The notes below the pieces were generated by a model. The model searched no databases, was not told the DNA's origin, and saw only the letters and a program-made list of their open reading frames with translations. DNA of 64,000 nucleotides from an uncultured Lachnospiraceae bacterium (GTDB lineage Bacteria; Bacillota; Clostridia; Lachnospirales; Lachnospiraceae): contig CANQSB010000001.1 of NCBI GenBank assembly GCA_947626435.1, positions 62,001 through 126,000 on the forward strand, given 5' to 3'. The translations under genes were made by a program, and so were the position numbers. Shown piece by piece: positions 1 to 22,126 of this stretch. The number at the start of each line of letters is the position of its first letter. Positions within the stretch are counted from its first letter, which is position 1.

Positions 1-429
1 CATGTGCTCATTTTCCGCAGGACAGTCGCACACAAGCCTGAAAACAGCCTTTTTCCCCTCCGACTTGTACTCCTCTATATGGTTTTCCGCGTAAAGCTTT
101 TCAAATGTATACCCGCCCTTCTGCGGTTCGATATCACGCCAATAAGCGTCTATGTACACCAGCGTGTTGCCGCCTACAGCCGTACGGCTTTCAGCGCCCG
201 GCGCATAGCCGATAAGGGGATTATAGAGTATCTCCATGTCATTTGCGTCCGAGTATTCCCCGATAGTTTTTATCGAATAATCCTCCAAAACACCGTTCAG
301 CTTTAAGCCCTGCAACGCGCTCTTCTCCCCCATGGACAAAGAATATTTAGTCTTGAAAAGCATACCGCAGGACATAAGCGCAAACGCCGCGATTGCAACG
401 CATAAAACCACATCAAGGCATTTATCCAT
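1..429 (-). CDS. DUF4832/TIM-barrel glycosidase-like protein, N-terminal part (runs off the window)
   Basis: Reverse-strand translation is open from ATG at 429 to base 1: MDKCLDVVLCVAIAAFALMSCGMLFKTKYSL...NPLIGYAPGAESRTAVGGNTLVYIDAYWRDIEPQKGGYTFEKLYAENHIEEYKSEGKKAVFRLVCDCPAEN. Signal/TM segment followed by a 'NP..G..P....W..iEP..G.Y.F' start typical of DUF4832/DUF4874-like barrels. Overlaps the DUF4956 stop by 8 nt. Confidence 0.6.
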   Translation of the reverse strand, partial: MDKCLDVVLCVAIAAFALMSCGMLFKTKYSLSMGEKSALQGLKLNGVLEDYSIKTIGEYSDANDMEILYNPLIGYAPGAESRTAVGGNTLVYIDAYWRDIEPQKGGYTFEKLYAENHIEEYKSEGKKAVFRLVCDCPAENEHM

Positions 430-1114
430 GGTACTCACCGTTATACTTTACAAAGCTTACCTGCGTCACGCCCATAACGCGCTCCACGCGCTCTACAAAG
501 CTAAGCTGCGCCTCCCTGCAGGTAACCTCGACCGTAAGCTCGTAGGTGCCGTTTCTGTACAGCTTCGATTTGACGGTGTGCTTCATGCTGTTAAATTCCC
601 TCATTATATTATCGCTCACGTTCTCGTCGCCCTCATAGCGCACCATCAAAATATAGGCGCTTGCCACAGCCTTTTTGCCAAAGGTCAGCGAGATAAAAAT
701 ATACATCACCAAAAATCCTATGCCGACAAGCACGTACATGTTTGCCCCGACTGTTATTCCCGACGTGATTGCCCAGAACATATACAGCAAGTCAAGCGGC
801 TCCTTTATCGCCGTCCTGTAACGCACGATGGAAAGCGCGCCCACCATACCGAGCGATATTACTATGTTGGTCGAAATCGCAAGCGTAACCATACAGGTGA
901 GTATCGTCATGCCGACAAGCGTAAGCCCGTACGTCCTGCTGTAGATGACGCCGTTGTAATACTTGCGGTATATCCTGAAAATCAGATAGCCGATAAGCAC
1001 CGCCACAGACATATTTAAAATTATTGTGATAAATGTGCCGAAATTAATCGCACTGCTGAAATTGTCCGCCTCCAGCACCGACTTTTTAATCATATCCTGA
1101 ACACTCATTTTCAT
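422..1114 (-). CDS. DUF4956 domain-containing membrane protein
   Basis: N-terminal TM helices, then 'LSIVRYRTAIKEPLDLLYMFWAITSGI...', the DUF4956 signature. Confidence 0.85.
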   Translation of the reverse strand: MKMSVQDMIKKSVLEADNFSSAINFGTFITIILNMSVAVLIGYLIFRIYRKYYNGVIYSRTYGLTLVGMTILTCMVTLAISTNIVISLGMVGALSIVRYRTAIKEPLDLLYMFWAITSGITVGANMYVLVGIGFLVMYIFISLTFGKKAVASAYILMVRYEGDENVSDNIMREFNSMKHTVKSKLYRNGTYELTVEVTCREAQLSFVERVERVMGVTQVSFVKYNGEYHG

Positions 1115-1186
1115 ACCTCATTTCCGCGCCGCCTTTCGCGTAAGCCTTATACGGCGCATATTAACCTATAATCTTTCCCCGCCGCC

Positions 1187-1906
1187 TTACAGCAGAAGCC
1201 CGTTGCGCCTTATGATGCTGTCGCAGCACATTACGTATTTTGACGCCGCCACATACACCGCCTCCTGCGTCGTGAGCACGTCGCTTATAAACTCAGGCAG
1301 AAGCGCCGTATATTTCACCTCAAGAATAAGCTCGTCAGGGTTCATCACGTCAAAGTAGGGCAGGCTTTCGTCAAACAGACTGCCGGTAAGCGCCGACTCG
1401 CGTATATTGCTGTCAAACGTAATGCGCACAGTCCCCAAGTCATACACAAACGGAATACGCTCATAATCCACAATCACCCGGGGTCTCAATTCATTTACCA
1501 TGCACTGATAATAAAAAGTCCTGCACACGTCCTCTTCCCTGTCCATAAGGAAATCATAATCGCCCGCAATTATTTTTTCCGTCTCGTCACGCGTGAGCGG
1601 CGCGCCCTCCTTAAAAATATAATTTCCCTGCTTATTTTTGCACTCCAAGCTGATTTTTTTATCGCTGTAATTATAAAGGCGTATCCTGTATTTTTTGCGC
1701 TCCGCCGTACCCATGAGCTTTTCCTCATAGGCTGAGTTTATCCTGTCGTCAAAATACAGGCTCCTAATCGTATAAATGCCGTTTTTAACATGTGAGTCCT
1801 TTTCAAGGAAGCACCCCAGCTTTGCCGCTATTATCTCCTGCTGGCTGCTTGTGATGAGATATTTAAGCTCGTGGCGGAAAGTATAGCCTTTATTATCACT
1901 CAACAT
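1187..1906 (-). CDS. VTC domain (polyphosphate polymerase-like) protein
   Basis: 'FRHELKYLI...IRSLYFDD...KYRIRLYN...LECKNK...VDYERIPFVY...LEVKY' pattern of bacterial VTC/TTM-fold polyphosphate polymerases. Confidence 0.85.
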   Translation of the reverse strand: MLSDNKGYTFRHELKYLITSSQQEIIAAKLGCFLEKDSHVKNGIYTIRSLYFDDRINSAYEEKLMGTAERKKYRIRLYNYSDKKISLECKNKQGNYIFKEGAPLTRDETEKIIAGDYDFLMDREEDVCRTFYYQCMVNELRPRVIVDYERIPFVYDLGTVRITFDSNIRESALTGSLFDESLPYFDVMNPDELILEVKYTALLPEFISDVLTTQEAVYVAASKYVMCCDSIIRRNGLLL

Positions 1907-3770
1907 ATATGTCCTCCGCTATAGCGCCGTCGATAAGGATATAGAAGCACTTCGTACCATATATCTTGCCGTTATCGCTCATATACGAGTCAAACGCATA
2001 CGAACTGTTGCCTTCACCATCTACCGCCTTTACGCGTACGAAATACTGTCCTGACGGCAGTTCCTCCGTTACCATGGTCTCGGGGAGAAAAAGCCCATCC
2101 TTACGGTAAATCGGATTCTCAAACGAATAGTCGTCCGCCAGCTCCACAGTATACGACACGTCATCATTCTGAAAATCATACGCTACGTCCCAGCTTATCT
2201 GCAAGCCTTCTGCCGTAAGCTCAGGCGCGCCGATGAAAAACGGCTGCGGATTTTGAAGCGTCTGCAGGTACTTTTGATAATTGCCCTCTATCTCGCCCGC
2301 GATTGACGACTTGACAAGCTCCCTGTCCTCAAAGCTAAGGCGCATATAGTATACGTCCGGCACTCTCTGCAGATACGGCATCAGCGCCGAATCATAGCTC
2401 TCTATCAGGGCATTTATTTTTTCAGGGGTCATAATCGCTTTAAACTCTTTGATTTTGTCGTCAAGCTTTTGACGGTATTCGTCCGATTTCAATACCCGCC
2501 TGAAAAGCACGTTGCCCCAGTAATTGCTTATGCCGGATTCCCACTCCAGACCGTCGTGCCAGTCCAGTATCTGCCTTTCGGTGTCCATAAAGGACGCGTC
2601 ATTGTCCCATGAGATAAAATACCATTTGTCCACATTAAGCGGGCTGTATAAAAAGCAGTTTCTCGACTGAGTGTCCTTATTGCCTACCAATATATGAAAA
2701 GCAAGCCACGAAAACACGTTTTCCTCGTCAAACCATTTGGCAAAGGTCTGCTCTATCGGTATGGTGTCATCATTTAATTCGTCAAGCATGCGTATAAGCT
2801 TCGTGTGGTCGTCACTGCCCTTGACCTCCATATAGCTTTCAAAGGCTTCCAAGTCATAGTCAGGGCTTGACGCGGGCACTATCACGTCCTCATAGCGGTA
2901 AAACTCAAAGAAATTAATCTTGTATAGCTGACCGTTGTTATCCAAGCCATGATTTCTAAGATACTTCTTGTTTATCTGCTCCACCTGCGTGTATATGCCG
3001 TAATCCTGATACTCGCCACTGCCTCCTACAGTATTGTCTTTCACATAGAGGTGTACGAACTGCGTGCGGGCGCTCATCATTCCTGAGAGCTCCTCCATCA
3101 AGTCATAGCAGAGCTTATTTCTGAAACGCAGTCCCTCTGATACGTGCTTATTCAGGTTGATTACCGTCTGGTCTTTATAACTGCCTTTTCCGTCCTTAAT
3201 CTTAATCCTGTAATTTTTCTGCGCGTTTCTCGTAGAGGTCTGACCCCTTATCGTCACAGTGACGTTCGGCGTAAAATCATCATAGCCAAAATCGCCTATG
3301 ACGGGTCCATTTTCATTCCCTACCTTCAATATACCCTCAACCTTGTACCGCTCAATGCCAAGCTCGTCATAATAATACGCGGAATTTTGGTTTATCTCCG
3401 TCCATGTATGGTTCGTGTTGTCAGACGCGTTGCCTGTCTGTACGGTGAGGTACATCGTCGCCACCTTGCTGTCGTCGTCAAGCTCATACAGCGATTTATT
3501 GTCATGTATCGGCGCATTGCCGCTCTGCTCGTAATTTCCGCTCTCATTTATGTATCCCTCTGCCGTCTGCCCGCTCTCGCCCGTTTCCTGCTCCGTCGCC
3601 TGCCCGTCCGTATTTTCGTTCATCGTCTCCGTCGCGCCGCCTTGATTCTTCGCCCAAGGTGAATCCTCTGACACAGCGCAGCCACAGACCGCAAACGCCG
3701 CCGCAAGCATGAGCGCAAGGCACGCTGCCCTGTTTTTACTGTGCCTTTTTAAGACGTTCTTCCCTCTCAC
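1896..3770 (-). CDS. CotH kinase family lipoprotein with C-terminal Fn3-like region
   Basis: GTG start with AGGAGAGG upstream; lipobox-like 'AFAVCGC'; CotH motifs 'RGQTSTRNAQKNYRIK', 'LVGNKDTQSRNCFLY', 'WDNDASF'. Confidence 0.85.
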   Translation of the reverse strand: MRGKNVLKRHSKNRAACLALMLAAAFAVCGCAVSEDSPWAKNQGGATETMNENTDGQATEQETGESGQTAEGYINESGNYEQSGNAPIHDNKSLYELDDDSKVATMYLTVQTGNASDNTNHTWTEINQNSAYYYDELGIERYKVEGILKVGNENGPVIGDFGYDDFTPNVTVTIRGQTSTRNAQKNYRIKIKDGKGSYKDQTVINLNKHVSEGLRFRNKLCYDLMEELSGMMSARTQFVHLYVKDNTVGGSGEYQDYGIYTQVEQINKKYLRNHGLDNNGQLYKINFFEFYRYEDVIVPASSPDYDLEAFESYMEVKGSDDHTKLIRMLDELNDDTIPIEQTFAKWFDEENVFSWLAFHILVGNKDTQSRNCFLYSPLNVDKWYFISWDNDASFMDTERQILDWHDGLEWESGISNYWGNVLFRRVLKSDEYRQKLDDKIKEFKAIMTPEKINALIESYDSALMPYLQRVPDVYYMRLSFEDRELVKSSIAGEIEGNYQKYLQTLQNPQPFFIGAPELTAEGLQISWDVAYDFQNDDVSYTVELADDYSFENPIYRKDGLFLPETMVTEELPSGQYFVRVKAVDGEGNSSYAFDSYMSDNGKIYGTKCFYILIDGAIAEDIYVE

Positions 3771-5214
3771 GATACCTCTCCTCCAATTTTTCGCTCAATC
3801 GAGTCATAACACCTGTTATCTCCACATTGGTAAAGGGCTGGCAGCTTATTACGTGGTAGCTGAGCTTTCTCGTAAAAAGCGTAACCCTGGTCAGCGATAT
3901 CCCTGTAAAGACAATGCCCGCCACCAAAAAGCCAAAGCCGTAAAACCTCGTATCCATATGCATAGTGATTATCGTCCCTATGACGCTGCACGCGGCATAT
4001 ATCGCCGTATCGACAAGCGCGCCCGCATTGTCCGCAAAGTAAAGCGACATAAGCATTACGCAGTTGCCCGCCGAGTAAAACGCGTAGCCTACGCACAATA
4101 CCCTGTAAATGCCAAGCATCTCCTCCGTAAAACCAAGCGGCAGCCTCGGTATCAGCAGCGTACCGAGCACTATGAATATAACGCTTGCAAAAAACTGCTT
4201 GGCAAACGTATATCCCAGCTCGCGGTTGAGCGTGGAGATAAGCTCCTTCTCCGCATTCTGTATATCAATCAGCGTGCCGCCCTTGTTGTACAGCCCGTAA
4301 TATATCCTGTACTTAGGATAAAACTTGACCTCCACAGAAGTAACAAAATTTATCGTGGTTATCAGTATCGACAAAAACGCCATGAGCGCCGACACGTCAT
4401 ATATCGGCGCGCCGTAAAACAGTCCCTTGACCTGCACTCCCGCGGGACTTGCCCACATCAACACCAGATGGGAGAAAAGCCCTATGCCTATAAATGTGCC
4501 CACCCCGACAAGCTGCGGGTATTTGTCAAACCATTTCAAAAAATCAAACGAGCCCGAATCACATTCGGGGAAATACTCTATCAGAAGCTTATAATACCAC
4601 ACGAGCATTATGCCATAGCCTATGATTACCGATATCAAAAGTGACAAAATCGCCTCCCTGTGGAATACCCTCACAAGAAGCCACCCTACCAGCAGCGCGC
4701 CGCATATCGCCGCCGCAAACGCAAGCATTATGCCGCGGTAATCCTTAACCGCCGTAAGGTAATTTATCTGCGTCCAGACTACGATAAGCTCCATATAAAA
4801 TATGAGGCAGCAGAGCTGATACGCGATGTCCACTCCCGAAAAATGCAGAAAAACGGCATACAGAAATCCGCCGCCCGTAAGCATTATGGCGATACTGCCG
4901 TAAAATGACGGCATTACCTTGCCCTCATCACCGACGAAGAGCACATCAGCCACATAGCGCGTCGTCACCATTGACAGAATGTTCGTCGTCATAAGGGACG
5001 CGAGCAGCGTATACGTTATCATGCAGTTCAAAAGCTCCTGGTTGTCATGCGCCATGCCGCTGGACATCGCTATCAGCTTGACTCCTGCCAAAAGCGCCAT
5101 GCCAAGCAGCATAGGACCCGTACAGATAATCCCTGAATAGCCGTATGCGCGTATCAATGCAAACAAGCCTTTCTTTGCAAAAAGCTTTTTTAGCTCAAAA
5201 CCTATTCCTGCCAT
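3736..5214 (-). CDS. pelG: Pel exopolysaccharide exporter PelG
   Basis: 492 aa multi-TM protein; N-terminus 'MAGIGFELKKLFAKKGLFALIRAYGYSGIICTGPMLLG' characteristic of PelG. Confidence 0.92.
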   Translation of the reverse strand: MAGIGFELKKLFAKKGLFALIRAYGYSGIICTGPMLLGMALLAGVKLIAMSSGMAHDNQELLNCMITYTLLASLMTTNILSMVTTRYVADVLFVGDEGKVMPSFYGSIAIMLTGGGFLYAVFLHFSGVDIAYQLCCLIFYMELIVVWTQINYLTAVKDYRGIMLAFAAAICGALLVGWLLVRVFHREAILSLLISVIIGYGIMLVWYYKLLIEYFPECDSGSFDFLKWFDKYPQLVGVGTFIGIGLFSHLVLMWASPAGVQVKGLFYGAPIYDVSALMAFLSILITTINFVTSVEVKFYPKYRIYYGLYNKGGTLIDIQNAEKELISTLNRELGYTFAKQFFASVIFIVLGTLLIPRLPLGFTEEMLGIYRVLCVGYAFYSAGNCVMLMSLYFADNAGALVDTAIYAACSVIGTIITMHMDTRFYGFGFLVAGIVFTGISLTRVTLFTRKLSYHVISCQPFTNVEITGVMTRLSEKLEERYREREERLKKAQ

Positions 5215-6631
5215 GACCGCGCACCTCCTTGTAAAGCTCCTTGTACTGATTCATGCTAATTTCCTGAGTGTAATAATTTTCCACCCGCTGCTGCCCTATC
5301 CTGCCCATGCGCTCACGCAGCGCGTCATCCTCACACATTCGCTCAAGCGCGTTTGCAAGCTCGTCACGCCCCATAGGCGTCACTATGAAGCCCGCCTGTC
5401 CAAGCTCGTCGTCGCCTCTGCCATAGATAAGCTCGCGACAGCACCCTACGTCCGTCACTACCGCAGGACGCGCCGCCGCAAACGATTCAAGCACCGACAA
5501 CGGCTGCGCCTCCGATATGCTCGTCAATATGGTAAAGTCAAATTTTTCAAGATACTCTACGACATTCACCGAACCGGTAAAAATAATGTCCTTTACGTCA
5601 AGCATTTCAATAAGACGCACACATTCGTCCTTGTACTCCTCATCGTCCGTATCGCCGAGAATGAACAGGCGCACCTTCTTCTTTGAATTTTTGAGCCTGA
5701 AGCGCGTCTTTAGCTCCGCAAAGGCGTAAATCATGGTCTTTACGTCCTTTATCTTGGCTATTCGCACTACTGCCCCTATGCTTATCCAGCCGTCGTCCGC
5801 TTTTGGCGGCACAGCCTTAAAGCGGTCATACGCCACGCCGTTTGCTATCACCCTAAGCTTTTCATGCTTACAGCCAAGCTCGCCCTGCATCCTGCTCGCC
5901 CCATAATAAAGGCTCGTCACCCTGTCGGCGTGCTCATAGGCGCAGCTCGAAAAGTTATAAAACAACTGTATCCATTGGTTTCTGAAGTTTGGCAGCACCC
6001 ACCTCGCACGAATCAGCTCCTCCTCACGCTCGCGCGTGTAAATGCCATGCTCCGTAAGTATGTAAGGCTTGCTGTATTTCCACTTGCCGAGGCTCCCAAG
6101 TATGCCGCTGTAGCCCGTCGCGGTCGCGTGATAGATATCAGCCTTGGGCACCTCGCCCGTCATGATGTAAAGCTCGGGCAGTATCATTGAGCGCACAGTA
6201 TGAAAATAATCGGCAAACGGTATATACGGGCACTTTTCAAGGCATACCCGCTGCACTATCTTTAGGAACTGCTCGCTTGTAAGCACCGAAACGGGATTTA
6301 GCTGCCTTTCCTGAAAAAGCTCAAAAACCAAATCCCAATCGGTTGACTCGCCCGCTATCAGAGTGTAGATTGCGTGTACTTCATATTCGTTGAGCTTTAT
6401 CCTGCCGCCCGAGGGCACAAGACGCAGCGCGTCGTCAAGAAATATCTGGTATACGTCCGTCACGTTTTTGGGAAGCTCGTATTTAAAAACATCCCTGTCC
6501 TTGCTGTGTGCGCCTATGCACCAAAGCACAAATTCATATTCGGGCATCGCCTGTATATAATTGTGCATCCATGAGGAAACGCCGCCTCGCACAAAGGGAT
6601 AGCTGCCCTCCAAAATCATACAGATTTTCAC
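5195..6631 (-). CDS. pelF: Pel glycosyltransferase PelF (GT4)
   Basis: 'MKICMILEGSYPFVRGGVSSWMHNYIQAMPEYEFVLW' N-terminus and 'SISEAQPLSVLESFAAARPAVVTDVGCCRELIYG' GT4 signature. Confidence 0.93.
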   Translation of the reverse strand: MKICMILEGSYPFVRGGVSSWMHNYIQAMPEYEFVLWCIGAHSKDRDVFKYELPKNVTDVYQIFLDDALRLVPSGGRIKLNEYEVHAIYTLIAGESTDWDLVFELFQERQLNPVSVLTSEQFLKIVQRVCLEKCPYIPFADYFHTVRSMILPELYIMTGEVPKADIYHATATGYSGILGSLGKWKYSKPYILTEHGIYTREREEELIRARWVLPNFRNQWIQLFYNFSSCAYEHADRVTSLYYGASRMQGELGCKHEKLRVIANGVAYDRFKAVPPKADDGWISIGAVVRIAKIKDVKTMIYAFAELKTRFRLKNSKKKVRLFILGDTDDEEYKDECVRLIEMLDVKDIIFTGSVNVVEYLEKFDFTILTSISEAQPLSVLESFAAARPAVVTDVGCCRELIYGRGDDELGQAGFIVTPMGRDELANALERMCEDDALRERMGRIGQQRVENYYTQEISMNQYKELYKEVRGHGRNRF

Positions 6632-6644
6632 TTTTTAACCATCC

Positions 6645-8486
6645 TTATCTGACAGAAATTTCCACATGACTGTCATATGCGGTAAGCAGATACAAATCAC
6701 CCGTTATATGCTCATAGTCCGCGCCTTCTATCTCGTCAATATCGCCGTTGTTTACGCGCATCATAAATGACGCCCTGCCGTTGAAGCCGCCTATGTCAAA
6801 CGCCAGCCCCATCAGCCTTTTTTGCCGCTCCATCGTGATAAGCGAATAGGTTTCCACCGCGTCCGCCATGCCGCTGCCCGTCACATTCTCAATATTCGGC
6901 GCGCTTTCATATATATATGAAAGATAATTCTCCAGATTCTGACTCATCACATGCCACCCAAGCGCCGCGCCCCTGTCCTCGTCAAGCGCATCGTCAGGGT
7001 GTATGAAATGCGACTGAACATAGTGGAAGTTCAGCTCCGAAAACGCTATCAGGTAGGTATACTCATCCATAATCGCTCCGGACGTGATTCGCGGCGTTTC
7101 TATTATGCCATCGTCCGCTATGCCGAATTCCTGCTCATACACGCAGTCGCCCGGCAGATATGTAGACGCTATAGCCCTAAGCTCCGGCAGCGCCGAAACC
7201 AGCAAATCGCGTCCCTCCTTTGAAAGGATGTTTGACGGCGGCACATACACGCGAAATTCACACCCCTCAAACAGCTCTGACGAAAAGCTCTTCAGCTCGT
7301 CAATCGCCGCCTTCATCTCGTCAGGGGACTTCCATAGCTTATAGCTGTCATATAGTCCCTTATAGTCAAAATTCTCAAGGCACAGCGGCATATGATTATA
7401 TCCATGGAAGCCAAGCTCCCCGCCGTTATTCAAAAGCATATTGCCAAAAAACCTGAACCGCTCGACCGATTCCGTCCGCGGAAACGGCGCCTCAACGATA
7501 TCTGAATAGTCCTCTATTATAAGCCCCGTATGTATTATGCCGTACTTCTCCTCCCAGTCCAGCATATCCTTCCACCATACATTCGCGTAAAAGTTGCTTA
7601 TATCCATTCCGTATTCTTTTTTTATGTATTCGCCATTGCCTCCCGGCACAGGCGCCGGGAAGTCGTCAAGGTAAAACGCGGACGCGTTAATCACCGGATA
7701 CACGCTCACCCTGTCCATAAGCGTAAACGCCGCCGTCCAGAAGCCGCGCCCCGCCTTGCTGGTAAGCGCCTGATTAATCACTACGAACTTGCCGACACCA
7801 TAGCCATAACCATACTCCCACATAAGCGGCAGACCGCTTTCCGATTCCCTGACATACACTTTGGCGTGTTCGTCAAGCAGAACGCTCAGGCTGAACCAAT
7901 ATTCCTCGTCATATTTGTACTCATGCTTGTCGCCCGCTATCATAAAGTCGTCCTCTACCGTAAAGCCGCTTACCGGGGCATAACCCTCGCCGCCCTCGAT
8001 AATGCCAAGCCTGCTGCGCAGCACTCTAAAGCTTGAGGATATGTCATATGTGACCATATTCATAAGCGCGCCGCCTGACTTTACCCACTCGACAATGTCC
8101 TGTATGGCATCTCCAAACAAATCAAGGTCCGTTATGCACAAGACTATTTTATTGTACTTGGTCAAATCCATCTCGGCCGCGTTGCTGACCTCTACAGTAT
8201 CATAAGCAACCTTCATGCCGTTAAGAATAAGTGACATTTCACCATAAAGCATATCGGAGGTCTCATCGCCGCCGTTCACTATGACCGCGGTATCAGACTT
8301 CGCGCTTACCGCAGCCGTCCGCTCCTGAGAAATACCCGCTGTGTCAGACTTTTTTGCCGAAACGCCCTTGTTCACTATCCCCTGTCTTTCACAATAGAGC
8401 ACCACGCCTATAATAAACAGCGCAACAAGCGGCCAAAGTATCTGAAACTTTTTCTTTAATTCCTTTAAGACAACATCCTTACGCAC
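6645..8486 (-). CDS. pelA: PelA deacetylase-like protein (DUF2194-type)
   Basis: N-terminal TM, then polysaccharide-deacetylase motifs 'ASAFYLDDFPAP' and 'GFHGYNHMPL' (D...HxxxH); located between pelE and pelF. Confidence 0.8.
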   Translation of the reverse strand: MRKDVVLKELKKKFQILWPLVALFIIGVVLYCERQGIVNKGVSAKKSDTAGISQERTAAVSAKSDTAVIVNGGDETSDMLYGEMSLILNGMKVAYDTVEVSNAAEMDLTKYNKIVLCITDLDLFGDAIQDIVEWVKSGGALMNMVTYDISSSFRVLRSRLGIIEGGEGYAPVSGFTVEDDFMIAGDKHEYKYDEEYWFSLSVLLDEHAKVYVRESESGLPLMWEYGYGYGVGKFVVINQALTSKAGRGFWTAAFTLMDRVSVYPVINASAFYLDDFPAPVPGGNGEYIKKEYGMDISNFYANVWWKDMLDWEEKYGIIHTGLIIEDYSDIVEAPFPRTESVERFRFFGNMLLNNGGELGFHGYNHMPLCLENFDYKGLYDSYKLWKSPDEMKAAIDELKSFSSELFEGCEFRVYVPPSNILSKEGRDLLVSALPELRAIASTYLPGDCVYEQEFGIADDGIIETPRITSGAIMDEYTYLIAFSELNFHYVQSHFIHPDDALDEDRGAALGWHVMSQNLENYLSYIYESAPNIENVTGSGMADAVETYSLITMERQKRLMGLAFDIGGFNGRASFMMRVNNGDIDEIEGADYEHITGDLYLLTAYDSHVEISVR

Positions 8487-8502
8487 TCAAACTCCTATCC
8501 GC

Positions 8503-9423
8503 CTAGTCTGCAGGCATACCGCTCCAAAACTCAATCCATTCCCTGCCATTACGGCTAAAATAAATGTCATTTTCATTTATGTAAGAAATCATATTGCGCA
8601 GAGAAGCATAATCGCGTATACTGTCAAAATACTGCCCATACAGCAGCAGCACCCTCTCATCGCCGCGGTATTCCTCCGCCGCTTTCTGCAGATGCATGTA
8701 CGCCTTGTCGTTGTCGCCCAACTGCATGTAATTCCTGATACATATGAACACGAGCCTGCCCATGCTCTCACCGCTCTGCTCATATTCCTCGCAGAGCGAA
8801 GCCAGACGCTGACGGTATTCATTCTCTATGGCGCCGCTCACAAGCCCTGATTCGATAAAGCGGTTTAAATATTCTATGTATTCCTTCAACAGGTTTTTAT
8901 CCGCTTCCTCACCGTTTTCTTTTTCTTCATTGCGCCGCTTTTCATAGTCCTGCAGATTGGTCTCATAGTCCGTAAGTATCTCCATCATCATGGTCGTGGC
9001 GTAATGCGTTACTTCCGTATCGCTGCTGTTTCGCGCTTTCTGTAGTATGTCTATATGTTCGTCAGGCGACCCATGAAGTATGTTCATCATGAGCGAATGT
9101 CTGGTCTTGGAGTCATTTACGGTGAGCGCCTCCTCAAGTGGCACAACTTCCATATCGGCGTTGTCGTCAACCTCTATCCTCTTGTAGTGCCCCGTTATGA
9201 CATTGAAATCCTCAAGCCCAATCTCGCGCCTTTTGGCTTTCTTTTTTACAGCCATGCGGTATCTCAAGGCAAAGGCAAGCGCTCCAAAAAGCGGCACCGC
9301 AATCACGATGGGCATAAGGTTTTCAAGGGTCAGACTGTCCTCTCGGCGCTTGGCGAGCCATGCCAGTACGCAGATTATAGCGTGTATTATGATTAAGATT
9401 ACTAATATAAAAAATGTAAGCAT
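8503..9423 (-). CDS. pelE: PelE-like protein (two TM helices plus TPR-like repeats)
   Basis: N-terminal hydrophobic pair followed by helical repeats; position pelD-pelE-pelA-pelF-pelG. Confidence 0.75.
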   Translation of the reverse strand: MLTFFILVILIIIHAIICVLAWLAKRREDSLTLENLMPIVIAVPLFGALAFALRYRMAVKKKAKRREIGLEDFNVITGHYKRIEVDDNADMEVVPLEEALTVNDSKTRHSLMMNILHGSPDEHIDILQKARNSSDTEVTHYATTMMMEILTDYETNLQDYEKRRNEEKENGEEADKNLLKEYIEYLNRFIESGLVSGAIENEYRQRLASLCEEYEQSGESMGRLVFICIRNYMQLGDNDKAYMHLQKAAEEYRGDERVLLLYGQYFDSIRDYASLRNMISYINENDIYFSRNGREWIEFWSGMPAD

Positions 9424-9443
9424 ATTTTACCGCGATTCTTTTC

Positions 9444-11561
9444 CTAAATATTATTTACTACCTGTATCTTTACGCCTCCAATTTCAAAGCGCCGGTTTAT
9501 TATATCCATGCTGTCCATATTCGCCTGCGTCATAAGCACATAAACCTTGCCGTCCGACCCTATACCCATGATGTCGTTTTTGCGCGTGATGCCGATAAGT
9601 CTCCTGCTCATTGCGGCATAGTCCCTGTCGCCCGTATCGACCCTCAGCAGGATATAGCTTGCCTGATTGTTGTCGCTAAGCTGCTTGTAGGATTCGACCT
9701 CCTTGGCAAAGAAGCTGTACTTCATAAGCTTTGTATTTTCCAGCATAACCTCCCGCTCCGACATCTCCTGATAATCCGCCGCGCGTATAAGCGTGTCCGA
9801 AATAAGCCCTGATATAATATTGAAACGGTTCATGTATTCCATGCTCATCTGGTCATATCGCGCCTGCTGTATGACAATAATACCTAAAAGTCTGTCGCTC
9901 CTGTATATGCCGGCCGCATAGTCAGGCTGCCCCGCAAGCATTTCACGATTCACCCATGTCTCACCCGCCTCAAGCGCCCTCCTGCAGTCAGGTATATCGC
10001 TGAGCCGCAATGATTTGGTAAGCGAATTGGCAAGCTTTCGCGAGCACGCGTTCAGGCGCGCGAACTGCCCGCCGTCAAGGGAATAAATAGCCACGCTCTG
10101 GGTTTCCAGCATATCCTCGAGAACCACTATCGCGTGATAAAAAATCTCGCTCGGACGCATGGAATTAAGCTGCTTTGTGGCGGCATAAATGCGTCCAAAG
10201 CTGTTTTTGTAGTTTACTATCTGGTTGCTGAAGCTTTCCTTGTTTTCAAGCGTCTTGGTGTACAGCTCGTTTAAGTAGCCGTATTTGTCTTCTATAATTT
10301 TCTGACTTTTCTGCAGGCTTTTCAGCTCATCCGTATATTTATCCTTGGTATAGCCGGCTATCGCGCCCGTAAGCACATAAGTGGCGAACGGCAGCCAGTT
10401 TATAATGTTGTAAAATTGTATCTGCCAGCTTGATCCTGCACTCAGGCTGATAAAATACATGACGCACGCCGCTATCGACGCCGCTATACCGTAGCGCAGC
10501 CCGTACATCGTACCCGCTATCACCACAAAAAACAGTCGAAAATCCGCAAAATCAACAAGCTCCATGCCCCTTGTCGCATGCGTAAGCACCTCGCAAAGCA
10601 AAAACAGTATAAATATCTCCGAAATGTCGACTATTTTTTCCTTTAGCTTGGCAAACTCACCCGAAGCAAGCTTTTCCCTGAGTGAAAGCTCTTTAGATTT
10701 TTCAAGCTCGCAGTACGCGCTGTACCAGCTTCCCACAATGTCATCTATACTCTCCTGTGGAAACCAGCCGTATCGCTTGCGTATGTATCTGCGCTTTTCC
10801 TCAGCCTCCGCGTCACTGTCCCCGTCAAAGCATATCGTACCATATTGCGCGTTTATGTCGTATTCCTTTATCCCTGCCGAACGCTCCACGATATAGAGCC
10901 AATCCCTCATAGTCATGTCATTGCCGCCGCCAAGCGCGCACTCTATATAACCGCTCTCATCTTCGTCCATTGCCGCGCGGATAAACCATGCCAAATCGCT
11001 TACAAAAAGAAAATCAACTATGCTGTCTCCGCTGAGCCGGGTCTTAAACTGCTTTTTCTGCTTAAGCTCCTCATATATCGATAAAAGCTCCGCCGGACAT
11101 TCCTTGTCTGACACAAGATAAGGCACCGACACCTTCAGCACGCTGCCGCCGTTTTCGCAAAACTGCCTGCAAAGCTCATTTCCCGCCCTTTCCACTATGT
11201 CATACATATCTATCCAGTGTACAGCCGCGCTCCTCTGCGGCTGCACATAAATCAGCTTTGTCCTTCTTTTCCTGCCGCACATTTCAAAAATCCTGTCAAG
11301 ATACTTGATTTCATCATATGCCTTGCCGCCCAGACCCCAGGACATAAATATTATGTAGTCAAACTCAAAGGTCATAAACATTTTGTCAAATTCAGTCTGA
11401 TTAATTTCGTAATCATAAATCGAAGCTTTTTTGACGGATAACCTTTCAACATCGCTTCCGCACACAACCGTCTTGACGCGCTCCACAAGCACCTCTAAAA
11501 AGTCATTCCCAATGTACTTAATATTACCCAATACAAGAGCTTCCAAATTTATTTTCCTCAC
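9444..11561 (-). CDS. pelD: PelD-like c-di-GMP receptor with N-terminal SDR/epimerase-like domain
   Basis: N-terminal Rossmann/epimerase-like region, about 4 TM helices, GAF-like region, C-terminal degenerate GGDEF with RKND-IMGIG-SDGKV (RxxD retained). Confidence 0.85.
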   Translation of the reverse strand: MRKINLEALVLGNIKYIGNDFLEVLVERVKTVVCGSDVERLSVKKASIYDYEINQTEFDKMFMTFEFDYIIFMSWGLGGKAYDEIKYLDRIFEMCGRKRRTKLIYVQPQRSAAVHWIDMYDIVERAGNELCRQFCENGGSVLKVSVPYLVSDKECPAELLSIYEELKQKKQFKTRLSGDSIVDFLFVSDLAWFIRAAMDEDESGYIECALGGGNDMTMRDWLYIVERSAGIKEYDINAQYGTICFDGDSDAEAEEKRRYIRKRYGWFPQESIDDIVGSWYSAYCELEKSKELSLREKLASGEFAKLKEKIVDISEIFILFLLCEVLTHATRGMELVDFADFRLFFVVIAGTMYGLRYGIAASIAACVMYFISLSAGSSWQIQFYNIINWLPFATYVLTGAIAGYTKDKYTDELKSLQKSQKIIEDKYGYLNELYTKTLENKESFSNQIVNYKNSFGRIYAATKQLNSMRPSEIFYHAIVVLEDMLETQSVAIYSLDGGQFARLNACSRKLANSLTKSLRLSDIPDCRRALEAGETWVNREMLAGQPDYAAGIYRSDRLLGIIVIQQARYDQMSMEYMNRFNIISGLISDTLIRAADYQEMSEREVMLENTKLMKYSFFAKEVESYKQLSDNNQASYILLRVDTGDRDYAAMSRRLIGITRKNDIMGIGSDGKVYVLMTQANMDSMDIINRRFEIGGVKIQVVNNI

Positions 11562-11711: not shown

Positions 11712-11740
11712 AAAAATCGCCGCAAAATACGGCGATTTTT
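11712..11740 (-). terminator. Rho-independent terminator of trpS
   Basis: Perfect 11-bp stem AAAAATCGCCG/CGGCGATTTTT just downstream of the trpS stop with a U tract. Confidence 0.85.
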
Positions 11741-12925: not shown

Positions 12926-15900
12926 TTAAAATTCATTAGTGTTTTTCTCCGCTTCATCCAAAGTCTTATAGCCGTAAAAATGTATGGTATTTTCCATTAT
13001 TTCCTGTGCTACGTTTTTGCCTGCATGGGCGTGCGATACTATATAGCGCCCATACATGTCAAGCATTTTGTCCGAATACGTGCCAAGCTCGCCTCTCAAA
13101 TAAGTCTCATAAGATGTATCATACGGCAGGTCGTCCCTTGTGTGGATAATCCTCGCATTTCCCGCAAGCCTTGGATAGCGCTTGGCAAAATCCTCCATAT
13201 CGCGCACCTGAAGCCTTACGATATTCTCTATGATGTTTTTCTTTTCTTCGGAAAGCGGCGGGAGAAAATCCGCAAAACGCGCATACTCCAATGGCGCCGT
13301 TGATTCCATCATACGGGCATATTTCTCCTCTATCATGTTTCTGCCATTTGCATAGTTTGTCTTAAATTCATACAAATACTGCAAAAGCATGTCTTCGCTC
13401 CAAGTCATGTATTGGCTCATGCGCATCACCTTGAAAGTCGGCCAGTTGTTTTGACAGCTTGCCCTGCCGCCTTCGTTCTGCACCTTGTCAAACGCCTCAA
13501 ACTCCGCCTTAGCTATCGAGAGCGAAAGCGCCGACACCACAGGCGTTTCAGCCATTACCGTCGTCAGCAGCGCATCACTTTTGGCTGTAAGCTCCGCCGT
13601 ATTCGCGTCGAGATATACATTGCTTTTACCTACAATATTCAGCCTTTCAAGCTCATTGGCAAATATTACGGCGAGCGCCTCCACTGTGACGGCAAGCTCC
13701 TGCTCGTCCTTTGACGCCACTGACAGCAGACTCATTTTTTCCAATAAGCTTGTGACGTCAAATTTGCTGCCGTCAAAGCTTTCGACGCACATCTTGGGAT
13801 TGTCAGGCAGTCCCTTAAACAGCCATTTGTCATGCGGCGAGTATTTCCTATTCAGCAGATAGGCAAGCTTCATGGCATACCTCATGCACTCCGCCTTTGC
13901 CAGTTCAGCCGATACAAGCTGCCCGCGCCGCTGCATCCTCGGTAAGTTGTACTGCCCGCTCTGTGAAAACATGGCACACGCCTGTGCGATTTTCCTGTAC
14001 CATACAGGCTTGGGATAGTATTTCAGCAGGCGTTTTCTATATTCCGTAAATATTCCCTCGTCATCTCTGAAGACTTCGCCGTTCACCGCGGCGGCAAGCG
14101 CGTAATCATGTATGGCAAGCCAGCATTTAATTGTGCTCAGGTTTTCTTTATTTCCATTTTGTTCAAGCGTGTCAAACAGGTCATAGCCTAATATATTTTT
14201 ATAAAAGTCTTCTATAGCCATAACTCCCGCGCGGTCCCTGCCATGAAAGGTTTCATTGCGCGTATATCCCATATATGTTGTCGGCAGCTCGTCATACGCC
14301 CGCTGGAGCTGTGCGCCTATGCGCTCATAGTTTTCCCTTGTAAGCCACATGACAAAACGCGGTCCGAAATCGTGGTCGGCTGACTGTCTGTCATCGAAGC
14401 CGAAACAGTCTGAACCCTTGCCTACAAGACCTACTGCTATTTTTTTCTCATATTCGGGGAATTTTTCGGCTATCATAGGTTTGCCGTATTCCTCATAGTA
14501 TCTGCGGCACAGTTCAAGCCCTGTGATCGGTGGCGTTAAATCCTCATAGGCAGCTATTGGGACAGGCTCCGCTGAGGACTCCTGCTGAGGTAGCTCTGTA
14601 GCTACTGGCTCTTGCTGGGACTGCGGTTCTGTAGCTGATTGCTCTTGCTCCGTCTGTGATTCCTCAACTGATTGCTCTTGAAGCGTTTCTTCCTGCAAAG
14701 TCGGTGCCTCTGTCGTATTTCTCTCCTCATTTAAAGGCTGGTCTTCTGATATGTCCTTTTCCTCCTGTGGCGTTTCGTGCTCTGCCGGAACTGCCTCAGC
14801 CTGCGATGGCTCTAGCTCTTCAAAATCTGCTTCAGCCTGCGATGGCTCTTGCTCTTTCAAATCTGCCTCACTTTGCTCCGGCTCATGCTCTGCCGGATCT
14901 GCCACAACCTGCACAGGCTCATGCTCCGCCGGGTCTGCCACAACCTGCTCCGGCTCATGCTCCGCTGGAATTGCTTCAGTCTGCTCCGGCTCGCACTCTG
15001 TCAAATCCGCCTCAACTTGCTCCGGCTCGCGCTCTGCCGAATCTGCCGCTTCCTGCATAGGCTCGCACTCTGCCGGAATTGCCTCATTCTGTGCAGTCTT
15101 ATATTCTGCCAAATCCGCCTCAACATGCACAGGCTGCTCTGCCGATGCTTCTTCCGGTTGATTTTCTTCAGAAGCCTTTTCCTGCGGGGGCTGCTCCGTC
15201 TCAAGCTTTGCCCTGATTATCGCTATGTTTTCACTAAGCCGCTTGTACTGTATGTTATTAGTCCCAAGGTACTTTGCCACGCAGTCCCTGCTCTTTTCCA
15301 TTACGTCACATGCCGCCTTATAATTTTTATCCATGTAATACAGGCTGCCCAGAGCGGAGAGCGCGGCGCTGTAATGGGCATCGTCCACACCTATCTCCTC
15401 GAAAATTCTGATTGCCTCCTCGGCACGTGCCTTTGCCTCATCGTCCTCACCGAGTTCTATGCAGGTATTAGCGAGATTGGCATGCGTGACGGCTATTTCA
15501 AACTGCGCGTCCTTTTTCTTTATAACTATATCAAGCGCTTTTTCAAGGTACTCTTTTGCCGATTTAAAATCGGACATTTCCTGATACAGGAGGCTTATGT
15601 TATTATATAGCCCCGCGTAGTACATATTATCAGGCTCAAGCAAAGAATCATATATCGGCAGAACTCTGTTATAATATCCAAGCGAATCCTGCAGAAGCCC
15701 TGCCGCTCTATGAGCGTTGGCTATGTTTAAAAGTGTGGTCGCATATGGCAGCGTTCCCTGTAAGTTCATCTTATCCGCAAGCTCTATCGCCTTATAACAG
15801 TTTGATACCGCTTTGTCGTATTCGCCCGTCTCTCGAAAAAAGCCTATCGCTTCATTATAAAGCATGAGCAGCGCCTCGTTATCCGGCTCCGCCTCGGCAA

Positions 15901-15997
15901 GCGCGATATGCTCTTCCAAAAAGGCGCTTATCTGACCTGCCTTTCCCTTATCGTCAAAGAGCGCGTCAAGCTCGCCCATTACCTGGTTTATATCCAT
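12926..15997 (-). CDS. TPR repeat plus DUF4037-like nucleotidyltransferase-type protein with Glu/Pro-rich repeat linker
   Basis: N-terminal TPRs; C-terminal 'VGLVGKGSDCFGFDDRQSADHDFGPRFVMWL...GAQLQRAYDELP' typical of DUF4037. Start moved to MDINQ, preceded by GGGGGAA. Confidence 0.8.
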   Translation of the reverse strand: MDINQVMGELDALFDDKGKAGQISAFLEEHIALAEAEPDNEALLMLYNEAIGFFRETGEYDKAVSNCYKAIELADKMNLQGTLPYATTLLNIANAHRAAGLLQDSLGYYNRVLPIYDSLLEPDNMYYAGLYNNISLLYQEMSDFKSAKEYLEKALDIVIKKKDAQFEIAVTHANLANTCIELGEDDEAKARAEEAIRIFEEIGVDDAHYSAALSALGSLYYMDKNYKAACDVMEKSRDCVAKYLGTNNIQYKRLSENIAIIRAKLETEQPPQEKASEENQPEEASAEQPVHVEADLAEYKTAQNEAIPAECEPMQEAADSAEREPEQVEADLTECEPEQTEAIPAEHEPEQVVADPAEHEPVQVVADPAEHEPEQSEADLKEQEPSQAEADFEELEPSQAEAVPAEHETPQEEKDISEDQPLNEERNTTEAPTLQEETLQEQSVEESQTEQEQSATEPQSQQEPVATELPQQESSAEPVPIAAYEDLTPPITGLELCRRYYEEYGKPMIAEKFPEYEKKIAVGLVGKGSDCFGFDDRQSADHDFGPRFVMWLTRENYERIGAQLQRAYDELPTTYMGYTRNETFHGRDRAGVMAIEDFYKNILGYDLFDTLEQNGNKENLSTIKCWLAIHDYALAAAVNGEVFRDDEGIFTEYRKRLLKYYPKPVWYRKIAQACAMFSQSGQYNLPRMQRRGQLVSAELAKAECMRYAMKLAYLLNRKYSPHDKWLFKGLPDNPKMCVESFDGSKFDVTSLLEKMSLLSVASKDEQELAVTVEALAVIFANELERLNIVGKSNVYLDANTAELTAKSDALLTTVMAETPVVSALSLSIAKAEFEAFDKVQNEGGRASCQNNWPTFKVMRMSQYMTWSEDMLLQYLYEFKTNYANGRNMIEEKYARMMESTAPLEYARFADFLPPLSEEKKNIIENIVRLQVRDMEDFAKRYPRLAGNARIIHTRDDLPYDTSYETYLRGELGTYSDKMLDMYGRYIVSHAHAGKNVAQEIMENTIHFYGYKTLDEAEKNTNEF
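14747..15106 (-). repeat. Ten imperfect tandem 36-bp (12 aa) coding repeats, consensus EHEPEQxEADPA
   Basis: Units read EYKTAQNEAIPA/ECEPMQEAADSA/EREPEQVEADLT/ECEPEQTEAIPA/EHEPEQVVADPA/EHEPVQVVADPA/EHEPEQSEADLK/EQEPSQAEADFE/ELEPSQAEAVPA/EHETPQEEKDIS. Confidence 0.9.
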
Positions 15998-16140
15998 TGA
16001 AGTTCCCCCCATTCAATAACAAAACCATTTTTCAAAAACCTAAGTATTTAACTAAAATATAGTATACGTGAAATTACAGGAATTTACAATCAAACTTTTA
16101 AACTTTTTAAATGCATTTGCCATACAACACACATCGGGTG

Positions 16141-18667: not shown

Positions 18668-20308
18668 CTATTTCACCTCAAGCAGCTTCTCAAATTCACT
18701 CCTGCACACCGGTCTTGAATAGTGATAGCCCTGCAGCAGCGTAGCCCGCATATCGCCTACAATCTCCGCCACCTTGCCGTCCTCCACTCCCTCTATGATG
18801 GATTTGTAGCCAAGACGCCTGCACATTTCAAGAAGACTGTCCACAATCACATAGTCAATCTCATGCCCCGGCTGGGCAAGCTCCCGGATGAAAGAATGCT
18901 CTACCTTGATATAATCCACAGGCAGCCATTTCAACATTTCCATAGAGGCGTAAGCCGTCCCAAAATCATCGAGCGCCATCTTAAAACCGTAATTACGCAG
19001 CCTGCTGAACGTTGCCGCAAGCTCTTTCGGATTTTCTACCTGACAACTCTCCGTAAGCTCTATAATGATATTCCCCGGATTTACCCCATATTTTTCCGCG
19101 CCGGCAATCACCCTGTCGGCAAACACGCCATCCGTCATCTGCTGATAAGACACGTTAAAGCTTACCTGCAGCTCGCCATATGTATCGCGCCATGCCACCT
19201 GCTGCCTGATAGCCTCCTCCATTACCCAAAAGCCTACCTCGCGTATGCCGCCGTACTCCTCCAAAACCTTGACAAACTCCATAGGGTATGAGTCCTTTAT
19301 CCGCTCGCCTTTCCACCGCAGAAGACATTCGCAGCCTGCGACCGCACCCGTATCAGGATTAACGAACGGCTGGAAATACAGTTCAAAGCCTTCAAAGCCG
19401 TTCTTGATGCTGTGCTTTAAATCCGCACGCAGCACAAGCCCCCTCTCATGCTTTTTGGCAATTTCATCCGAAAAGAATACCATTTCACCGCGCAGCCTGC
19501 TCTTGGCATATTCAAGTGAATGTTCAAGCTTGCTGATAAGCGTTTCCCTGTCTGACGCGTCTTTCGGGAAAAATACGCCGCCCGCCGATATGGAAATTTC
19601 CGCCTTGCGCCCGTCCGCGAGCATCATAACGCTCGTCTCCTGACTCAGCTCCTTATAGTATTCCTCCGCTTCCCGCATATCCGCGCCGGCGGCAAACACG
19701 AGAAATTCATCCCCGTTAAACCGAAGCGCTTTCCAGCCTGATTTTGCCAGACCGCTCAACCTGCCCGCAAATTTAACCAGAATCTCATCGCCCGCATTAT
19801 ACCCATAATTGCTTATAATCTTCCTAAATCCGTCCAAGCCGATAAGCAGCGCTATCCCCGATTGGGAATCAAAATCAAAGCAGCGCAGCTCCTGCACTGT
19901 CATAAGCCCTGTCAGCGAATCGTACTTGCTCTGCCCGTCTATCCTTGTCATCAGCCCCGCGAAAATGATAGGCGTGCCCTCCGCGTCGCGGATTACGCTG
20001 CCCTTACACTCCACCCAGACATACCCGCCCGATGCATTCCGCGCCCTGTATTGGCAGTCGTGGTATTTCTTCTTTCCTGAAAAAACGCTGGTAATGTCAT
20101 CAGTGTAAGTTGCCAGGTCATCAGGGTGTACATGCTTCGCCCACTGATTCGCCGCATCTTTTATATACTCGCTGTCCAGCCCGAAATACTCTACGGCAGC
20201 CTTTGACCAGCGTGAAACGTCCGTCTTCATGTCGCACACGTAGATATAAACATTATCCGATGCCGATGCAAACGCTTCAAACAGCTCGTTATTAAAAACA
20301 TCACTCAT
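18668..20308 (-). CDS. PAS-GGDEF-EAL c-di-GMP turnover protein
   Basis: PAS ('VDPDDL'-like MTRID linker), degenerate-leaning 'RFNGDEFLVF', EAL-domain residues 'ECLLRW', 'FNVSYQQM', 'ELTES', 'ALDDFGTAYAS', 'DYIKVE', 'EGVED', 'QGYHYSRP'. Start moved to MSDVFNNE with GGAGATAG upstream. Confidence 0.88.
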   Translation of the reverse strand: MSDVFNNELFEAFASASDNVYIYVCDMKTDVSRWSKAAVEYFGLDSEYIKDAANQWAKHVHPDDLATYTDDITSVFSGKKKYHDCQYRARNASGGYVWVECKGSVIRDAEGTPIIFAGLMTRIDGQSKYDSLTGLMTVQELRCFDFDSQSGIALLIGLDGFRKIISNYGYNAGDEILVKFAGRLSGLAKSGWKALRFNGDEFLVFAAGADMREAEEYYKELSQETSVMMLADGRKAEISISAGGVFFPKDASDRETLISKLEHSLEYAKSRLRGEMVFFSDEIAKKHERGLVLRADLKHSIKNGFEGFELYFQPFVNPDTGAVAGCECLLRWKGERIKDSYPMEFVKVLEEYGGIREVGFWVMEEAIRQQVAWRDTYGELQVSFNVSYQQMTDGVFADRVIAGAEKYGVNPGNIIIELTESCQVENPKELAATFSRLRNYGFKMALDDFGTAYASMEMLKWLPVDYIKVEHSFIRELAQPGHEIDYVIVDSLLEMCRRLGYKSIIEGVEDGKVAEIVGDMRATLLQGYHYSRPVCRSEFEKLLEVK

Positions 20309-20353
20309 AACTATCTCCATTCTGCCGCCAAACAGTTGGCGGCACAAATATAT

Positions 20354-22126
20354 CTACAACCTCACAACCCTGTTTTTGCCTGCCGCTTTCGCCATATAGA
20401 GCGCCTTATCCACGCGACTGTACAGCATATCGGCGTTCTCGTCTCCCGCCTGCGTGACTCCGATGCTCACCGTCTGGCAGGGCGCCGTCTCATATGATAC
20501 CGCCGCAAACGCCAGGCGTATTTTCTCCGCCAGTGCTTCCGCCTCATCCAAATCGCTGTCCGCCAACAGCACCATAAACTCCTCACCGCCCCAACGCCCA
20601 AGTGAGCACGAATCCACATCAGCCGTCGTATCCCTGAGCACGTCCGCCAAAGCCTGAATCACGTGGTCGCCTTCCTTATGCCCATATATGTCGTTTACCT
20701 TTTTGAAATTGTCAATATCCAACATAATCAGCGACATATGACCGCGGATTTCAAAATTCCTGTATCTGTCAAGCGTACTGTGGATTTTTCTCTCTATCTC
20801 CGCGCGGTTATTAAGCCTTGTCAGACCGTCAGTGACAGAGCTCATGGCAAGCTTCTTGTTCATCTCCTCCAAATCAGCCGTAGAAGCCTCGATAAACGAA
20901 ACAAAGCGCCTTATAATAGGTATTCTCTCTCTTTCACTATTTTCAAGCTGTTCCTGTGCAATGTTTACCCTTTTCCCTGAAGCCGGCTCATCTCCCTCGC
21001 GCATGGCGACTATTACAAGCGTCACGTTAAAATTGAGCATGTCGCCGTTTATTCGCACAAACTCGCCATGGGTATAAAAACCCGCAGTAGGCGCGACTTT
21101 GTTAAAAATGACAGTCTCGTCGCTTATATTTTCGTCGCCCCAGAACGCCCTTCTTGCAGCGCACGAAAACGTCTGTATAACCTCCGGCATGAAATCCGCT
21201 ATCCGCTGCCCGTCTTCCCTGATACTCGCAAGGATTGTCTCGGGGTCGCCGTATGCGAGCCTGACGTTCGTTCCCTCCTGCATGTCAGACGACATCACAA
21301 GCGAGCCGTCCTCGTTTGCCGCAAGCGGACATCTCAGGATGTCTATGCCGTCATGCTCCACAAAAAGCGGAAACTCAAGCGTATTGGAGAAAAATTTTTC
21401 ATTCCTGTTGATATTTAAAAATCTGCGGTATATGTCAAGGGCAGGTTTGCCGTCAAGCTCATAAAGTATCTCTCTGTCAGCCTTCGTGACCTTGAATTTT
21501 CTTTTCAGGGGCTTCCAGCCGGAGATAAACGTACTGTATGTATGAAAATCTTCACCGCCAAGCAGAAGAAATACGATGCCATGACCCAAAATTTCGTTGC
21601 CCTTTGAAAATACGAACGCCGTCTCATCATCCATGTCGGGATTGAACGCCCCGCCCCCGAATACCTGTATATCCTCGCGCAGACCGCTCATCTTATTGCA
21701 AAATTCCATCATGGACATATCCATAATAGTGGCATGCATCTCCACAGCATTGACCCATGGATTTTCCTCACAGCATTTTTTAAGTTCAGCCACATCATGC
21801 GCCACGTCATCCTCTAAAAACGGAAATTGCAGGATTTTCGCCTTCGTCGTCTCACATTCAAAGACTGTACAGAGCAGTATGATACGCGTATTCGTCAATG
21901 CGCCGTCTGTGATGTTGGCGTTGGTCGTGCAGCCAAGATACAGCGCGTCCGGCATCTCGTGGTCAAGAAATTCGCATATGTGCCTGATATGCTCCCTTTC
22001 CATATCGTCTGAATATATCCGAAATACAGTGGTGTAACCCGCATGCGTCTCCTTCCACTGCCTGATTTCCGCCAAATTTTCAAGAAGTCCGTCATCGTCC
22101 CTATACAATATCTTAAATTGTTTCAT
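20354..22126 (-). CDS. FIST-domain diguanylate cyclase (FIST_N/FIST_C plus GGDEF)
   Basis: FIST-type 'DALYLGCTTNANITDGALTNTRIILL' and 'GHGIVFLLLGGEDFHTYSTFISGWKPLKRKFKVTK'; 'LGRWGGEEFMVLLADSD'. Start moved to MKQFKILY. Confidence 0.85.
   Translation of the reverse strand: MKQFKILYRDDDGLLENLAEIRQWKETHAGYTTVFRIYSDDMEREHIRHICEFLDHEMPDALYLGCTTNANITDGALTNTRIILLCTVFECETTKAKILQFPFLEDDVAHDVAELKKCCEENPWVNAVEMHATIMDMSMMEFCNKMSGLREDIQVFGGGAFNPDMDDETAFVFSKGNEILGHGIVFLLLGGEDFHTYSTFISGWKPLKRKFKVTKADREILYELDGKPALDIYRRFLNINRNEKFFSNTLEFPLFVEHDGIDILRCPLAANEDGSLVMSSDMQEGTNVRLAYGDPETILASIREDGQRIADFMPEVIQTFSCAARRAFWGDENISDETVIFNKVAPTAGFYTHGEFVRINGDMLNFNVTLVIVAMREGDEPASGKRVNIAQEQLENSERERIPIIRRFVSFIEASTADLEEMNKKLAMSSVTDGLTRLNNRAEIERKIHSTLDRYRNFEIRGHMSLIMLDIDNFKKVNDIYGHKEGDHVIQALADVLRDTTADVDSCSLGRWGGEEFMVLLADSDLDEAEALAEKIRLAFAAVSYETAPCQTVSIGVTQAGDENADMLYSRVDKALYMAKAAGKNRVVRL

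Follow-up and report, generated by a model that had tools for sequence, protein, structure and literature searches.

A Gram-positive Pel operon of an uncultured Lachnospiraceae bacterium and the VTC-DUF4956-CotH genes that extend it

Reports exist on accessory genes attached to the loci for the biofilm polysaccharide Pel in Gram-positive bacteria. In 2020, cotH, a polyphosphate-polymerase-like gene, a DUF4956 gene and a DUF4832 gene were described as contiguous with pelDEA(DA)FG in streptococci and clostridia (PMC7112168). More recently, the four counterparts have been deleted singly in Streptococcus intermedius (PMC12345266, 2025). Pel was still made in all four mutants; loss of the DUF4956 gene led to more Pel and less aggregation, loss of cotH lowered both Pel and aggregation, and the DUF4832 counterpart was an active Pel-degrading glycoside hydrolase. 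The window analysed here is a stretch of 64,000 nucleotides (G000:C1:62001-126000) from a 3.7-Mb draft genome of an uncultured Lachnospiraceae bacterium. Open reading frame (ORF) calls place pelD, pelE, pelA, pelF, pelG, cotH, VTC, DUF4956 and the 5' part of a DUF4832-like gene in one minus-strand run over its first 11.6 kb. A preliminary description had given this colinear order and the sizes of its gene overlaps, both of which the ORF calls bear out. It had also proposed an under-described system, which is not supported: PMC7112168 already illustrates this block, and its accessory genes were deleted one by one in PMC12345266. The Pel extension is a further example, in a gut Lachnospiraceae bacterium, of the published arrangement, not a new system.

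VTC and DUF4956 in and outside Pel loci

The genome contains three VTC genes, accompanied in each case by one DUF4956 gene and one CotH gene. Two of these triads lie away from Pel, one inside a glycosyltransferase-rich glycan cluster (L005:6381-9739) and the other beside a two-component system (L006:9070-12485). The same families were sought in a fixed set of 250 genomes from one phylum. VTC and DUF4956 were present in the same 35 genomes with 44 genes each, and 43 of the 44 pairs were no more than 3 kb apart, the remaining pair being split by contig ends (hypergeometric P for co-occurrence = 1.5e-43, a value that ignores relatedness and serves as a guide only). Throughout the phylum sample the two genes are almost never apart and are usually far from Pel, with PelG within 12 kb of 2/44 pairs and 2/8 PelG genes linked to the block. 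CotH lies within 6 kb of 28/44 pairs. Neighbour maps indicate that the secreted third partner varies, the arrangement being either VTC-DUF4956-CotH or VTC-DUF4956-Cthe_2159, where Cthe_2159 is a carbohydrate-binding lipoprotein family. A second recurring layout, of surface-polymer type and resembling NELoc-2 of Clostridium perfringens, is seen at three loci (L011, L034, and L045), where a GT2 synthase-like gene adjoins the triad; HEAT or weak bactofilin matches accompany it at two of the loci and MBOAT/DHHW at one. The triad was also found on a Pseudobutyrivibrio plasmid, a Planococcus plasmid and a Nonomuraea replicon, and both families were present in the same 3/14 control genomes (scored as presence in the genome); evidence for the pairing outside the phylum consists of single cases and the 3 control genomes. 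In the parts available of the open-licence literature naming DUF4956, no description of the pairing outside Pel was found. The earlier proposal of a distal module that modifies or anchors Pel is too narrow, given how few pairs lie near PelG and the two extra triads of this genome. In S. intermedius the four extra genes are dispensable for Pel, and only two of them modulate aggregation. The Pel accessory genes are better seen as a single instance of a general bacterial unit, the two core genes of which are near-inseparable in the phylum, and bacterial VTC proteins, the role of which is unsettled, gain an obvious partner in DUF4956.

At three further loci (L067, L072, and L103), VTC-DUF4956 lacks a CotH gene; IreB, RuvX, and RNase J genes follow the pair directly, and an opposite-strand frame of 356-387 aa precedes it. 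The conserved cluster behind the pair at these loci was considered as a pilus operon on the basis of gene size and rejected, as its genes are housekeeping (IreB, RuvX, RNase J, U32 peptidase).

Relatives of the window locus were scanned with the three VTC paralogues of this genome as queries, the 42-sequence VTC alignment being too diverse. The nearest named relatives are rabbit-gut Lachnospiraceae metagenome-assembled genomes (MAGs), with VTC proteins 91-93% identical. Among the 80 VTC loci nearest to the window VTC, DUF4956 was present in 79 (the exception is a 2.9-kb contig) and PelG in 46; the Pel linkage is conserved in close relatives. The order PelG-CotH-VTC-DUF4956 is kept in Lachnospiraceae, Oscillospiraceae, Streptococcus, Abiotrophia, and Collinsella. 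In a quick VTC tree most Pel-linked copies cluster, with non-Pel copies interspersed and G140 apart as a second, separate Pel linkage; the six changes between Pel and non-Pel labels are an upper-end count, since some of the non-Pel labels belong to short contigs. Overall, the Pel linkage is old but local. Pairwise distance correlations were 0.93 for VTC/DUF4956 and 0.83 for VTC/CotH, against 0.67 for VTC/PelG, a value calculated over 37 Pel loci; all three have a contribution from shared phylogeny. These values fit a unit that would be more coherent inside than with Pel.

Two relatives show additional arrangements. In Streptococcus henryi, another VTC-DUF4956 pair lies on the opposite strand, some 7 kb past the pel block (L087:15616-16663). 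One Lachnospiraceae relative, a rectal MAG, has PelG and CotH in a single frame of 1065 aa with the CotH lipoprotein signal inside (L058:4207-7404), which is either a natural fusion or an assembly slip; coming from one MAG alone, it was not relied on as proof of coupling.

Proteins of the unit and PelD

The VTC profile matches Vtc4 at E 1e-17; a PDB search with the single sequence returned nothing, and the profile was needed. K15, R74, R76, K90, K99, R150, R161, E196, K198, and S222 align with Vtc4 K200, R264, R266, K281, K294, R361, R373, E426, K428, and S457, respectively, and all ten are conserved without exception in sets of 42 and 58 sequences. The inactivated yeast mutant is Vtc4 R264A/R266A/E426N. 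The AlphaFold2 (AF2) model has a predicted local distance difference test score (pLDDT) of 92.5, and its best PDB match is Vtc4 with a nucleotide analogue bound (E 2e-14), ahead of tripolyphosphatases. The window protein combines the tunnel fold with the Vtc4 catalytic residues. The position of K198 is Lys in Vtc4 and Glu in a plant tripolyphosphatase; along the exit path R11 and K198 are basic as in Vtc4, and E13 is acidic. An N-terminal hydrophobic helix was found in 0/125 VTC proteins, and hydropathy predicts a cytosolic location. No SPX domain was detected by Pfam in the 239-aa protein. By its sequence, this tunnel enzyme has the equipment of a polyphosphate polymerase, and it would presumably have that activity. 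PPK1 was not found in 23/35 VTC-bearing genomes of the phylum sample, and VTC may therefore be the main polyphosphate maker there. In the present genome, a single contig carries matches to PPK1 and Ppx/GppA with about 1 kb between them (G000:C77:1350-3902).

The DUF4956 model (AF2, pLDDT 75) has helices at residues 25-52, 60-80, 84-96, 106-123, and 127-145, followed by a beta-alpha-beta domain. This C-terminal domain matches ACT domains and the C-terminal domain of MgtC (2lqj, E 8e-4), and a Pfam MgtC match in a DUF4956 paralogue was below the cut-off. The invariant R98 and R100 are located where the short third helix ends. All 126 of 126 DUF4956 proteins have an N-terminal hydrophobic helix by hydropathy, which predicts a membrane protein. 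CotH matches a solved CotH kinase at E 6e-8. Its N364, D366, W388, and D389 are each kept in at least 95% of 91 relatives; D366 (96% conserved) aligns in the kinase core of 5jd9, and the protein has a CotH domain with the catalytic Asp.

The N-terminal part of PelD matches epimerases in a profile search, in which the best 60 of 126 matches all fall on this part; a single-sequence PDB search with PelD gave nothing, and the profile was needed. PelD carries an RxxD motif and a distal Arg as in cyclic di-GMP (c-di-GMP) binding sites. These residues, R660, D663, and R691, are kept in 7 aligned PelD proteins and align with the c-di-GMP-binding R363, D366, and R395 of Bacillus cereus with matching spacing. 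Since the genome also holds 18 GGDEF genes over cut-off, c-di-GMP control of this operon, as the preliminary description had it, is plausible. Two of the GGDEF genes (18668-22213) may be functionally tied to pel, judging by proximity.

Possible roles of the unit in the Pel locus

The explanation favoured here, at a probability of about 0.55, is that a c-di-GMP-controlled Gram-positive Pel operon took in a general VTC, DUF4956, and CotH module together with a Pel-cleaving DUF4832 enzyme, and that the module tunes Pel. VTC, soluble and cytosolic, would polymerise phosphate from ATP. DUF4956 would be its membrane partner, docking and gating VTC through the ACT-like regulatory domain, so that the complex would sit at the inner face of the membrane. 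CotH, anchored and kinase-like, would have its site of action beyond the membrane. Within a Pel locus, the module would alter the amount or cohesive behaviour of Pel and not its synthesis. The explanation draws on the VTC-DUF4956 linkage, the Vtc4-like residues and fold of VTC, the predicted topologies and the Pel effects of the S. intermedius deletions. Pel is cationic after deacetylation, and an exported polyphosphate could for this reason bridge it. More speculatively, the phosphate chain may cross the membrane outward and then either bridge Pel in this way or feed CotH, which it could serve where ATP is scarce. A wider version, in which VTC-DUF4956 is a widespread polyphosphate polymerase-translocase, the exported polymer is used or bound outside the cell by an exchangeable secreted partner (CotH or Cthe_2159), and Pel and GT2 loci recruited the unit for cross-linking polysaccharide through anionic polyphosphate or through phosphorylation that it feeds, is considered unlikely.

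Several observations weigh against the favoured explanation. The DUF4956 model resembles MgtC/ACT and not the Vtc1 channel, and confidence in the membrane part of the model is modest. The R11-x-E13-x-K15 stretch of VTC retains one acidic residue typical of tripolyphosphatases, so VTC may still be a hydrolase. The genome also encodes PPK1 and Ppx, and VTC is thus not the sole polyphosphate route here. For the S. intermedius VTC deletion, no change in aggregation or Pel was reported (PMC12345266); polyphosphate is therefore not needed for Pel under those conditions, which argues against polyphosphate bridging Pel in the conditions tried. Hydropathy usually places the third partner behind a signal or anchor, with an N-terminal hydrophobic helix in 79/93 CotH and 11/13 Cthe_2159 proteins, in favour of the explanation, but the test on CotH is crude against a background of 180/412.

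The resemblance of DUF4956 to MgtC/ACT folds is one reason to consider VTC and DUF4956 as a unit that senses and buffers phosphate or Mg. It would adjust cytosolic phosphate or ATP, and hence the supply of UDP-sugars and c-di-GMP signalling, with no export. A response regulator/histidine kinase pair adjoins 20/44 VTC loci, and PMC12345266 reads the accessory genes as phosphate metabolism, both of which are consistent with such a unit; the signal or anchor usually predicted on the third gene's product argues for action outside the cell. This alternative is possible, at clearly lower probability than the favoured explanation. Rather doubtful is the proposal that CotH is the centre of the system, an extracytoplasmic kinase phosphorylating Pel, PelA or a surface protein, to which VTC and DUF4956 merely supply the donor. 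The cotH deletion phenotype in S. intermedius agrees with it, as do the conserved residues of the CotH kinase core, and the phosphate source of CotH kinases has been called an open question (PMC7821199), one that the present arrangement makes testable. It fits poorly with the 16/44 VTC-DUF4956 pairs that have no CotH nearby, and with the occurrence of Cthe_2159 in its place. That the block travels with Pel by chance, as a passenger without shared function, could be argued from the few linked VTC pairs and PelG genes in the phylum sample, and is very improbable given the gene order kept from Lachnospiraceae to Collinsella, the separate second linkage in G140 and the Pel phenotypes of the deletions.

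Layout of the locus and its counterparts

The homologues of PelF, PelG, and the PelA deacetylase stand in one block with PelD and PelE, as in a Gram-positive Pel operon, and cotH, VTC (PPP), DUF4956, and DUF4832 are all contiguous with pelG. Pfam matches for PelG, DUF3492 and GT1, DUF2194, CotH, VTC, and DUF4956 all pass the cut-off; PelE has a weak TPR match only and PelD a weak DUF4118 match only.

Table 1. Features of the window at and upstream of the pel block
Feature	Position	Strand	Basis or remark
pelD	9444..11561	-	degenerate N-terminal SDR/epimerase domain, transmembrane (TM) region, C-terminal domain with c-di-GMP trio R660, D663, R691
pelE (TPR-like)	8503..9423	-	weak TPR_14 match; position and family clustering
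pelA, deacetylase-type (DUF2194)	6645..8486	-	Pfam 540 bits
pelF glycosyltransferase	5195..6631	-	Pfam DUF3492 and GT1
pelG exporter	3736..5214	-	Pfam PelG 437 bits
cotH, CotH-kinase-like	1896..3770	-	Pfam CotH 224 bits; probable lipoprotein signal (FAVCGC)
VTC, soluble triphosphate-tunnel enzyme (239 aa)	1187..1906	-	Pfam VTC 125 bits; all Vtc4 catalytic residues
DUF4956, predicted four-TM MgtC-like membrane protein	422..1114	-	Pfam 37 bits; C-terminal ACT-like domain
DUF4832 gene, 5' part	1..438	-	gene cut by window edge; complete at L004:6476-7939
Terminator-like inverted repeat, trpS/pelD interval	11712..11740	.	AAAAATCGCCG...CGGCGATTTTT, read by eye; sets trpS and pelD apart
PAS-GGDEF-EAL gene	18668-20347	-	upstream of pel block
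GGDEF protein gene, intact GGEEF motif	20354-22213	-	adjoins PAS-GGDEF-EAL gene, upstream of pel block

Overlaps join pelF/pelG (20 nt), pelG/cotH (35 nt, with a GTG start for cotH), cotH/VTC (11 nt), and DUF4956/DUF4832 (8 nt from the ATG at 429 or 17 nt from the GTG at 438). VTC and DUF4956 do not overlap and are separated by 72 nt, and the gaps at pelD/E, E/A, and A/F are 20, 16, and 13 nt. The full-length DUF4832 gene encodes 487 aa and matches DUF4832; a convergent TetR-like gene comes next, and the block therefore ends at DUF4832. Sequence scans for internal promoters and terminators, including the pelG-cotH junction, stayed at shuffle level with none standing out, and a search of the locus for riboswitches (e.g., of the c-di-GMP class) gave zero Rfam matches at gathering score. 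The gene overlaps suggest one transcript. Of the single translationally coupled operon proposed earlier, the single gene block stands; the coupling is not proven by overlaps. Elsewhere in the window, a 1028-aa protein (12926-16012) contains a long stretch of repeats rich in Glu, Ala, and Pro (about 14650-15200), across which long frames also stay open on the opposite strand.

The locus figured in PMC7112168 (S4 Fig) has the same genes in the same order, and PelD has an N-terminal degenerate epimerase in both. The host lineage is new here (uncultured relatives of rabbit-gut Lachnospiraceae), and the window PelD keeps the c-di-GMP residues, unlike that of the streptococci; as the latter are without this PelD domain, the present host is probably regulated classically. 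SIR_1591-1594 of S. intermedius are orthologous to the four extra genes, and the relatives sampled include S. anginosus (L059) and S. intermedius (L061). PMC12345266 reported no case of the three-gene synteny outside Pel, a statement that is corrected by the two non-Pel triads of this genome and many elsewhere. The yeast VTC complex (Vtc4/Vtc3/Vtc1; PMC9911596) shares with the window the tunnel-domain fold, the catalytic residues and the pairing of an enzyme with a membrane subunit. It differs in that the window VTC is a separate soluble protein without SPX and the membrane partner looks MgtC-like, not Vtc1-like; the Vtc1-type three-helix channel subunits and SPX of the eukaryotic complex are both missing. 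In Clostridium perfringens, NELoc-2 has a row of VTC, a 222-226-aa membrane protein, CotH, a protein of about 685 aa, a HEAT protein, and a GT2 'chitin synthase' (PMC2879425). Judging by size and place, the 222-226-aa proteins, annotated 'tubulin/FtsZ', are probably DUF4956. This layout is common to the Planococcus plasmid and locus L011 of G164, and it represents not Pel but another glycosyltransferase-based surface-polymer locus.

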